A DNA stretch of 64,000 bases from Nitrospirota bacterium (lineage in GTDB: Bacteria > Nitrospirota > Thermodesulfovibrionia > UBA6902), in NCBI GenBank assembly GCA_016214845.1, contig JACRMS010000016.1, forward strand, positions 84,488-148,487, given 5' to 3'. The notes below the pieces were generated by a model, which saw nothing but the letters and a program-made list of their open reading frames with translations, ran no database searches and was not told where the DNA came from. Made by a program: the position numbers and the translations under genes. Shown one piece after another: positions 49,531-53,443 of the stretch (the first letter of the stretch is position 1; every line of letters begins with the position of its first letter).

Positions 49531-50674
49531 AAAAAAATACACCTTCCACGGAGGGGCGGAGAGCTTTTCAGGCAGTTTCATTGAGAAGCTCGCGGATGAC
49601 GGACACGAGATGCATATATTCGCGATAAAATGGGAGGCAGGCGGTACGCACAAAAATATCCATTTTCATAAAGTGCCCGCGATCACGTTCAATTCATTTC
49701 TCAGGGACCTCTCTTTTGCTGTGTCTTCATACTTCCTTCTGAAGAAACAGAGAAAGTATTTCGACATAATCCAGACCCACGACAAGACAATTTATCAGGA
49801 CATCTACCGCGCAGGGGACGGATGTCACATTGAGTGGTTGAGGCAGAGGTGGAAGAGGATTGGTATTTTGGGAAAACTTTCCATGGTCCTTAATCCTTAT
49901 CACTGGCTCATCCTTGATCTGGAGCATAAAATTTTCAGCAGGCGCAGGTATAAAAAGATCATCGCCATTTCTGAGATGGTCAAAAAGAACATCATCGACA
50001 ATTACAAGGTCCCTCCTTCCGATATCGAGGTGATTTACAACGGCGTGGACACAAATAAATTTCATCCGGCGAACAGAGAAAAGTTCAGACATGAAATCAG
50101 ACGGAAGCACGGATTGACTGAAAATGATTTTGTCGTGCTCTTCATGGGTTCGGGTTTTGAAAGGAAAGGGGTCGGGGCTTTGATACAGGCTGTTGAGAGG
50201 GTAAAGGAGCCGGTTGCGGTTTTGATAGTGGGAAAGGGGAAACACCCCCCTGTGTCCCCCCTTAATAAGGGGGGAATTAAAGGGGGGGCTTTTCAGTACA
50301 AGCACAAAATCATTTTCTGCGGGCCGCAGAAGGACAATTATAAATACTACGCCGCTGCTGACATATTCGTCTTCCCGACAATCTATGAGCCTTTCGGCAA
50401 TGTCCATCTTGAGGCGCTGGCAAGCGGGCTTCCGGTGATAACAACAAGAAACAGCGGCGCCTCTGAGACAATCAAAGACGGTTTGCATGGTTTTGTTATA
50501 GAGCGGCCGGAGGACGTCGCAGCTATTTCGGAGAAGATAAAATATTTCATGGATAACAGAGACAAGCTGGAGTCAATGAGCCAAAACGCAAGGCAGCTTG
50601 CCGGGGAGTTTACTTTTGAAAAGCATATTGAGAAAATACGAGAGTTGTATCAGAGGGTAATTGAAGCGTCATAG
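49511..50674 (+). CDS. Glycosyltransferase family 4 with an in-frame hairpin repeat
   Basis: A 387-residue GT-B enzyme: KIAIIRKKYTFHGGAESFSGSFIEKL, a WaaG-like DIIQTHDKT and DGCHIEWL, and the C-lobe EX7E motif in EPFGNVHLEALASGLPVITTRNSG. This pattern is close to WaaG-type core glucosyltransferases. Residues ~244-260 (KHPPVSPLNKGGIKGGA) are coded by a family B hairpin between strands of the C-lobe. The start is a GTG at 49511, overlapping the preceding gene by 20 bp. Confidence 0.88.
   Translation: MKIAIIRKKYTFHGGAESFSGSFIEKLADDGHEMHIFAIKWEAGGTHKNIHFHKVPAITFNSFLRDLSFAVSSYFLLKKQRKYFDIIQTHDKTIYQDIYRAGDGCHIEWLRQRWKRIGILGKLSMVLNPYHWLILDLEHKIFSRRRYKKIIAISEMVKKNIIDNYKVPPSDIEVIYNGVDTNKFHPANREKFRHEIRRKHGLTENDFVVLFMGSGFERKGVGALIQAVERVKEPVAVLIVGKGKHPPVSPLNKGGIKGGAFQYKHKIIFCGPQKDNYKYYAAADIFVFPTIYEPFGNVHLEALASGLPVITTRNSGASETIKDGLHGFVIERPEDVAAISEKIKYFMDNRDKLESMSQNARQLAGEFTFEKHIEKIRELYQRVIEAS
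50243..50290. repeat. Family B hairpin inside a glycosyltransferase gene (copy 3)
   Basis: Contains the exact hairpin CCCCCCTTAATAAGGGGGG (50256-50274) within longer C- and G-rich arms. Read as HPPVSPLNKGGIKGG in frame. Confidence 0.9.
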
Positions 50675-51536: not shown

Positions 51537-52585
51537 AAATACTTATCATCAAGCCGAGCTCGCTGGGCGATGTCATCCATGCACTGCCTTTTCTGAACGC
51601 AGTGAAGGATACCTTCCCAAAGGCCCGAATAGACTGGGTGATAAGCGAGAATTTTAAAGACATACTCGCAGGCAATCCACTTATTAACAGGCTTATTGTC
51701 TTTGATAAAGACGCATTAAAAAAGGCAGGCGGGATGTTACACGTTGCAAAAACCTTGCATAAGGAATTGAAGGCGCAGCGCTATGATATTGTTGTTGATC
51801 TTCAGGGGCTATTGAGAAGCGGGGTGATGACAGTATTCGCACAGGCCCCGTTGAAAGTAGGTTTTGCCGATGCGCGGGAAGGGAGCACATTTTTTTATGA
51901 TAAAAAAGTTTCCGTTGATAAAAACATGCATGCTGTAGACAAATGCCTTGAGGTAGCAAAGGCAATCGACGCAAAGGTAAACAAGGCAGCGTTCCCGCTC
52001 CATGTTGACAAAGCATCAAAGGGGAAAGTAAAAGAGCTTGTCGGCAATATCGGGGAATATCTTGTGATAGTTCCATCCGCGAGATGGGAAACGAAAAGGT
52101 GGCCTGCTGAAAATTTCGCCGAGTTGATATTGAAAGTTGCTGTTCCATGCGTTATTGTTGGAAGTAAGAGTGATAAAAAGATAGCACAGGAGATTATGGA
52201 CAGAAGACAGAAGACAGAAGACAGAGGACAGATACCCCCCCATCCCCCCCTTGCCAAGGGGGGGCAAAGGGGGGTTATCGACCTTTGTGGTAAAACCGAT
52301 CTGAAAGAGCTCGTTGCCTTGATTGCCGGGGCGCGGGCAGTGGTGAGCAATGATTCAGGCCCAATGCACATTGCCGCCGCACTCAACAAACCCCTTGTCG
52401 CGATCTTCGGCCCCACTGATCCGGCAAAGACCGGCCCGTACGGCTGGCAAAAAAATAAAAATATGAAAGTAATAAGGGCAAACGTCACATGCGGCCCCTG
52501 CAGAAAGAGGAAATGCAGGGAGCTTATCTGCATGGAAAAAATAAGTGTTGAGGAAGTAACTAAGGCGGTGAAGGAACTGCTATGA
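51533..52585 (+). CDS. waaC: Lipopolysaccharide heptosyltransferase I with an in-frame repeat pair
   Basis: A 350-residue GT9 enzyme: KILIIKPSSLGDVIHALPFLNA with the conserved SLGD motif, VVDLQGLLRSG, PSARWETKRWPAENFAELI, then VVSNDSGPMHIAAALNKPLVAIFGPTDPAKTGPYG. It transfers the first heptose to Kdo2-lipid A, or a closely related step. Residues ~223-248 (DRRQKTEDRGQIPPHPPLAK and the next 6) are not family-like. They derive from adjacent family C and family B repeats. The ATG lies in the stop of the previous gene (ATGA overlap). Confidence 0.88.
   Translation: MKILIIKPSSLGDVIHALPFLNAVKDTFPKARIDWVISENFKDILAGNPLINRLIVFDKDALKKAGGMLHVAKTLHKELKAQRYDIVVDLQGLLRSGVMTVFAQAPLKVGFADAREGSTFFYDKKVSVDKNMHAVDKCLEVAKAIDAKVNKAAFPLHVDKASKGKVKELVGNIGEYLVIVPSARWETKRWPAENFAELILKVAVPCVIVGSKSDKKIAQEIMDRRQKTEDRGQIPPHPPLAKGGQRGVIDLCGKTDLKELVALIAGARAVVSNDSGPMHIAAALNKPLVAIFGPTDPAKTGPYGWQKNKNMKVIRANVTCGPCRKRKCRELICMEKISVEEVTKAVKELL
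52198..52275. repeat. Adjacent family C and family B repeats inside waaC
   Basis: The first part (52198-52232) is purine-rich with ACAGAAGACAGAAGACAG reiterations. The second (52234-52275) has the hairpin CCCCCCCTTGCCAAGGGGGG within longer arms. Both are read in frame as DRRQKTEDRGQ and IPPHPPLAKGGQRGV. Confidence 0.88.
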
Positions 52586-53361
52586 CAAAACAAAGAAGAC
52601 AGAAGTCAGAAGTCAGAAGTCAGAAAAAAATTATCATGGTCCTCATTCTGTGCTCTGTCCTCTGTCTTCTGTCTTCTGTTTTCTGTCTTTCCATCGACGC
52701 CGGGCAGCCGGTCAATAATAAATTCGTCTACTACATATACTGGTCAGGCATCAAGGCCGGTACCGCGGAATTTACATTTGAAAACTCTCCTGAAGGCCTT
52801 ACGCTCACTACATACGCAACCTCCGCGCCGGTGATCTCCATCTTTTATAAAGTAGAAGATTTCGCGCAAAGCACTTTGGACCCTGACGGCTATCCGAAGA
52901 GTTTTATCCTGAAGGCAAGCGAAGGAAGGCACAAAAGGGACAAGGAGACGTATTTTGAATCTATGCCGGACGGAAAGCATAAGGTAAATTATTACGACAA
53001 AATAAAAGACAAGAGGGCTGAATTCTTCTTCGATCAACCGGCATATGACCCGTTGTCGGCTTTCTTCGCAATGACAAAGATGTCCCTGGAGGAGGGGCAG
53101 TCGAAATTTATCGACATATTTGACAGCAAGAAACTCTATCATACGGAAATTCAGGTTTTGAAAAAAGAAAAGGTCCGCGTGCCCGCCGGAGAGTTCAACA
53201 CTATCCTTGTGAAACCCCTCCTGAAATCAGAGGGGCTTTTCCGCAAGACAGGAGATATCTTCATCTGGGCGACTGATGACGATAGAAAACTCCCTGTCCT
53301 CTTAAAAAGCAAGGCCGTAATCGGCTCCTTCACCGTTGAACTGGCCGAAGGGGATTATTAA
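52582..53361 (+). CDS. DUF3108 domain-containing exported protein
   Basis: A 259-residue protein. The N-terminus (MTKQRRQKSEVRSQKK) is basic and the next ~22 residues (IIMVLILCSVLCLLSSVFCL) hydrophobic, which is a signal peptide or anchor. The mature part is a DUF3108 beta-rich domain: FVYYIYWSGIKAGTAEF, YKVEDFAQSTLDPDGYPKSF, YDPLSAFFAM, and a KEKVRVPAGEFNTILVKP block near the end. The function of DUF3108 proteins is unknown. The ATG overlaps the waaC stop by 4 bp. Both the basic and hydrophobic parts of the signal peptide are coded by opposed arms of a family C repeat. Confidence 0.85.
   Translation: MTKQRRQKSEVRSQKKIIMVLILCSVLCLLSSVFCLSIDAGQPVNNKFVYYIYWSGIKAGTAEFTFENSPEGLTLTTYATSAPVISIFYKVEDFAQSTLDPDGYPKSFILKASEGRHKRDKETYFESMPDGKHKVNYYDKIKDKRAEFFFDQPAYDPLSAFFAMTKMSLEEGQSKFIDIFDSKKLYHTEIQVLKKEKVRVPAGEFNTILVKPLLKSEGLFRKTGDIFIWATDDDRKLPVLLKSKAVIGSFTVELAEGDY
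52592..52688. repeat. Family C inverted arms coding a signal peptide
   Basis: The left arm is purine-rich (GAAGACAGAAGTCAGAAGTC, from 52594). The right arm (52646-52688) is its pyrimidine-rich counterpart (CTGTCCTCTGTCTTCTGTC). The two arms can pair. The left arm encodes RRQKSEVRSQK and the right arm LCSVLCLLSSVFCL. Confidence 0.88.
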
Positions 53362-53370
53362 ACTAAAAGC

Positions 53371-53443
53371 CGTAATGCGTAATGCGTAATCCGTAATGCG
53401 TAAAGAGTTACTGAGTTATTCTTTTTACCCATCACGCGTTACG
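53371..53443. repeat. CGTAATGCGTAATGCG inverted-arm repeat (family F, copy 2)
   Basis: Left arm CGTAATGCGTAATGCGTAAT, right arm ATCACGCGTTACG, spacer about 30 bp. It follows the DUF3108 stop codon by 9 bp. Confidence 0.7.

Follow-up and report, generated by a model that had tools for sequence, protein, structure and literature searches.

In a 64,000-nt stretch of a Nitrospirota genome (contig JACRMS010000016.1, positions 84,488 to 148,487; hereafter the window), the gene for a DUF3108 protein opens with a signal peptide written largely in repeat DNA. Two arrays of 7-nt units make up about 80% of the first 36 codons, a purine array coding for the basic n-region and a pyrimidine array coding for the hydrophobic core (Table 1). 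A sequence-only reading of the DNA had described both regions as repeat-coded, and this observation was confirmed; its interpretation, that an inverted-repeat element inserted in the right phase makes a new exported protein, held up in part. We consider it likely that the arrays are dispersed heptads comparable to the short tandemly repeated repetitive (STRR) sequences of cyanobacteria, which are heptanucleotide tandem repeats, and that they are indifferent to reading frame, sorted by selection into loops and signal peptides, and subject to turnover of their units. It seems that they rewrite export signals already present and do not create new exported proteins. The DUF3108 protein begins with MTKQRRQKSEVRSQKKIIMVLILCSVLCLLSSVFCLSIDA, followed by GQ after the putative cleavage site, and by the sequence pattern on which it was judged this N-terminus would match a Sec signal peptide, having a basic n-region, a hydrophobic h-region and a small residue before cleavage. 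The ATG at 52582 overlaps the stop codon of the upstream glycosyltransferase gene (ATGA) and follows GAAGGA, an arrangement matched in relatives, which argues against a true start downstream of the repeat. An internal ATG at 52636 was rejected as the start, being without a ribosome site and missing in G006 (compared genomes are cited by G numbers).

Comparison of orthologues indicates that the DUF3108 signal peptide is older than its present repeats, since at genus, family and order level the orthologues retain both the start region and a cleavage region of similar sequence (SIDA, SVEA, VVEA, SLEA, PLEA), and in G009, G026, G034 and G036 an ordinary, array-free signal peptide occupies the same place. 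Relatives of this kind had been named beforehand as evidence against the creation of a new exported protein, and that claim did not survive them. An old, probably Sec-type signal peptide would instead have had its n- and h-regions overwritten by two dispersed arrays that left gene start and cleavage region in place. Of the 28 DUF3108 orthologues, 11 had arrays in the signal-peptide region, and the mature parts were free of them. Mean signal-peptide length was 44 aa with an array and 40 aa without, which is not clearly different. The units vary considerably: G006 has arrays in common with G000, G007 has AAAAGTC units followed by ACTCGTT and TTCACTG units, G003, G038, G040, G041 and G042 have CTGTGTT units, and G005, G008 and G002 carry further variants. 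Between G000 and G006 the pyrimidine arm is identical at 44/45 positions and the mature part at 88%, too weak a difference to build on.

A 7-nt unit runs through all three phases in every 21 nt and, because 7 and 3 have no common factor, codes for one identical cycle of seven amino acids whichever frame is read. The phase of insertion, on which the sequence-only reading had relied, is therefore irrelevant to the peptide of the array itself; the downstream frame still requires a suitable total of added length. CTGTCTT codes for LSSVFCL, AAGACAG for KTEDRRQ and AAGTCAG for KSEVRSQ, all stop-free, and for GTAATGC and CTGACTT one strand has a stop in all frames. What matters is the strand, which sets the character of the peptide as hydrophilic (RSQKSEV, KTEDRRQ) or hydrophobic (LSSVFCL). 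Arrays would be tolerated because of this indifference to frame, and selection would sort them, the hydrophilic strand into loops and n-regions and the strongly hydrophobic strand into signal-peptide cores only. We infer from the sequences a signal-peptide function for the array-coded peptides, and selection as the force behind the sorting.

The arms at 52584-52625 and 52646-52687 are 79% complementary across a spacer of 20 nt, the match being imperfect because they carry different units (AGAAGTC and CTGTCTT). The arms are also complementary in the DUF3108 gene of G003, and there is a published precedent in Yersinia YPO1552, where a miniature inverted-repeat transposable element (MITE) contributes to a predicted signal peptide (PMC2229807). 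A mobile inverted-repeat element that yields a ready signal peptide, and so new exported proteins, is nevertheless improbable, as phase is irrelevant and the hosts (DUF3108, TolB, AtpF and BamA) are old families in which array-free orthologues already have signal peptides. In addition, a heptamer is common to both arms in just 7/21 two-armed signal peptides of orthologues, and the inverted repeat is therefore a special case rather than a rule; the hydrophilic arm comes first in 21/21, as a signal peptide requires. Terminal inverted repeats, by which MITEs and palindromic elements are recognized, are imperfect at the window site and generally lacking. For the DUF3108 gene the element model is largely refuted. 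The arms of the window are also predicted to form an RNA hairpin of -48 kcal/mol (z = -5.5), a strong prediction for G000 that DUF3108 of G003 shares (z about -5.5), as would suit an inverted repeat retained as a gene-junction stem-loop controlling translation or mRNA processing, with the signal peptide incidental. We give this next to no credence, given that arms are mostly non-complementary. A conserved hairpin was rejected on other array-bearing signal peptides, for which the predicted fold is weaker than in shuffled sequences (DUF3108 of G007, z +2.7, and G041, z +1.4; TolB of G003, z +2.8).

The dispersed heptads of the preferred reading recur in other exported proteins. Arrays lie in the signal peptides of 26 of 36 TolB orthologues across several families, with none in mature parts, and in the signal-peptide region of 11/11 AtpF orthologues, with one in mature parts; among shuffled signal-peptide regions of DUF3108, TolB and AtpF at most 0.8% contained arrays. 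For BamA, whose relatives were not array-selected, 16 orthologues were matched and four N-termini were cut at the wrong motif; arrays occurred in 5/12 usable N-termini and 0/16 mature parts. Most genomes compared were drafts, with one genome per species, and the single-contig genome G052 has an array in TolB. At the same signal-peptide site the units differ from species to species, so that over evolution the heptad at a given site would have been swapped for another. The 54 listed signal-peptide arrays comprise 22 unit types, against about 51-53 expected for random units. This count, together with the recurrence of a few heptads at unrelated loci in many species, makes local slippage unlikely, that is, heptads growing in place by polymerase slippage in signal-peptide DNA that tolerates length change, with no dispersal. 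Arrays that are imperfect and species-variable would fit slippage, which has also been proposed for heptamers, cited in PMC4679880 as the most abundant long simple repeat class of many bacterial genomes. Part of the recurrence may be due to common descent and to constraint on the coding sequence. A 7-nt change shifts the downstream frame, and arrays could in principle be contingency loci that turn the gene off when the number of units changes by one, like the heptanucleotide repeat that reportedly acts as a switch in neuO. Such phase variation is very improbable: degenerate units should slow slippage, the hosts include the housekeeping genes AtpF, TolB, LeuS and GuaA, and array lengths in DUF3108 and AtpF are identical in G000 and G006.

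The genome carrying the window measures 3.4 Mb, and its nearest named relatives are metagenome-assembled genomes of Nitrospirae/Nitrospiraceae. The related pattern TCTGWCYTCTGWCYTCTG occurs at 91 exact places in it, compared with 17 for the reversed control pattern, which bears out the dispersal proposed earlier, and the window contains five 7-nt arrays where five first-order Markov shuffles gave 0. A phylum-wide scan with one exact pattern, CTGTGYT, matched only 7/198 genomes. Arrays in other genes were located by one seed, exact TCTGWCYTCTGWCYTCTG, read with about 3 kb on either side and with genes called by a home-made caller, so that the sample consists of stretches of the genome rather than the whole. 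Of the 76 arrays in these seed-selected stretches, 53 are within called genes, and Pfam families could be assigned to 39 of the 40 array-bearing proteins that were scanned, including leucyl-tRNA synthetase, PriA, EPSP synthase, carbamoyl-phosphate synthase small chain, GMP synthase, ribonucleotide reductase and porphobilinogen deaminase. For 28 internal arrays of Pfam-supported enzymes in this one-genome sample the opposite strand is open as well, and in 27 of these it is the less hydrophobic strand that codes. Strongly hydrophobic arrays were seen only in the signal peptides of DUF3108, TolB, a TPR lipoprotein and another exported protein in L153. Purine arrays form the basic N-terminal stretch of an OEP/TolC-like efflux protein, AtpF, FliP, a multihaem cytochrome, an M16 peptidase and a prepilin-like leader. 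The expectation of further proteins with repeat-coded export signals was thus borne out by TolB, AtpF, the OEP/TolC-like protein, the M16 peptidase, the TPR lipoprotein and the other exported protein. An aminotransferase in L092 and a trypsin/TPR protein in L085 were rejected as N-terminal cases, their translation probably starting downstream of the array. Y1 transposases (PF01797), which resemble REP-associated tyrosine transposases (RAYT), were rejected as the spreading agent, as their counts do not track array load: there are two in the array-rich G000 and six in G003, which has none of the array pattern TCTGWCYTCTGWCYTCTG.

One loop of the cytosolic enzyme AroA (EPSP synthase; L077 2738-4135, L134-L147) has a heptad array in 8/14 species, found nowhere else in the gene. 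Its units vary by species, other repeat-like inserts occupy it in some of the remaining species, and the alignment shows the loop to be variable, with no precise empty site. A wider proposal is that a shared set of frame-agnostic heptanucleotides has been moved or copied between loci in the class of this genome, repeatedly rewriting n- and h-regions along with particular loops of enzymes; secretion signals would then be interchangeable repeat modules evolving by module replacement rather than point mutation. We put this forward tentatively, as a possibility that we would not yet back.

Several points weigh against the reading of sorted, frame-agnostic arrays. TolB, AtpF and DUF3108 were chosen because their own-genome copies have arrays, and their high rates are partly due to how these genes were found. 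An unbiased sample of 400 kb, not array-selected, had arrays in 3/96 signal-peptide-like N-termini compared with 1/186 others, and in the rest of genes 0.2-0.35 arrays per hundred 180-nt stretches, so that the rates in those three genes are not typical; the direction agrees with an excess in signal peptides, and the numbers are small. Signal peptides were assigned by a crude rule and the gene caller was also crude. Turnover would follow from differences between units rather than from a dated tree. A phylum-wide scan with one exact pattern, CTGTGYT, matched only 7/198 genomes.

Studies have described comparable repeats in other organisms. PMC4692102 cites heptamers in Calothrix; GGGNATC repeats have been reported from Xanthomonas and Nostoc (PMC4692102) and TAACTGA repeats from Beggiatoaceae (PMC4679880). 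The present arrays resemble STRR, GGGNATC and TAACTGA repeats in the 7-nt unit, the short tandem arrays and the dispersal at many loci. The known heptamer arrays are mainly intergenic (PMC4692102, PMC4679880), whereas most sampled arrays of one family here are in frame inside conserved genes, as counted in the seed-selected stretches, and they form signal peptides whose units turn over between species. For the TAACTGA type it was noted that translation gives a repeated peptide and that orientation restricts array placement (PMC4679880). Rickettsia palindromic elements (Ogata et al., as reviewed in PMC2229807) are 100-200 bp long, dispersed and likewise in frame within conserved proteins, but the heptad arrays are short and tandem and form no general palindrome. 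Delihas has described fusions with YPAL/RU-2 and enterobacterial repetitive intergenic consensus (ERIC) MITEs that place repeat DNA in the predicted signal peptide of YPO1552 (PMC2229807); that case concerns one MITE and one new putative gene, whereas heptad arrays occur in many old exported proteins. Borg tandem repeats also lie within genes, with units that are multiples of three and hosts enriched in signal peptides and extracellular regions (PMC9879509), while the unit here is 7 nt and builds hydrophobic cores as well. In the literature searched, signal peptides built from heptanucleotide arrays are nowhere directly reported, nor did that literature yield the combination described here, in which old signal peptides of several genes and many species are composed of frame-agnostic heptads whose units change. 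The arrays offer a simple arithmetic route for repeat DNA into genes with little harm, through a unit not divisible by three and a strand that picks hydrophilic or hydrophobic peptide. One signal peptide written in different heptads in each species provides natural replicates for asking how small an amount of sequence information suffices for a signal peptide, and in these genomes heptad arrays can mislead gene-start calls and repeat masking.

Table 1. The DUF3108 gene of the window and its parts.
Feature	Position	Strand	Basis
DUF3108 gene, 259 aa	52582..53361	+	Open reading frame; Pfam PF11306 DUF3108, E 3e-37
Likely ribosome-binding site GAAGGA	52570..52575	+	Sequence; orthologues show the same region
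Purine heptad array, AGAAGAC/AGAAGTC units, coding for basic n-region QRRQKSEVRSQK	52589..52629	+	7-nt periodicity
Pyrimidine heptad array, CTGTCTT/CTGTCCT/CTGTGCT units, coding for hydrophobic core LCSVLCLLSSVFCL	52646..52690	+	7-nt periodicity
SIDA, conserved c-region ahead of inferred cleavage site	52690..52701	+	SVEA, VVEA, SLEA, PLEA in orthologues

Other repeats were noted beside these genes. The leader peptide of a prepilin-like protein (L076 2479-3108, minus strand) is coded by a purine heptad array immediately before GFTLVE. The N-terminal extension of BamA in L073 contains WRHSRESGNPE, which resembles the translation of another dispersed repeat. In L067, L080, L083 and L092 a GTCACCC/GTCACTC-type array (TRHPSPVT, SSLVTRHSSL) often comes after the purine CAG-type array on the coding strand, which suggests that such pairs are composite units. 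Within the window, at 52199-52273 (plus strand), the upstream glycosyltransferase gene has an in-frame purine heptad array (DRRQKTEDRGQ) and, after it, another dispersed repeat, PPHPPLAKGGQRG, from CCCCCC...GGGGGG. This second repeat is also in frame, as PPVSPLNKGGIKGG at 50246-50287 (plus strand), in another glycosyltransferase, and in G006 and G007 the AroA loop contains related peptides (PPIPPSSRGGEGG and PPIPPLLRGEQGG). Directly 3' of the DUF3108 gene, at 53367-53405, lies an intergenic GTAATGC-type heptad array with stops in all frames on the GTAATGC strand, followed by a partly complementary stretch.
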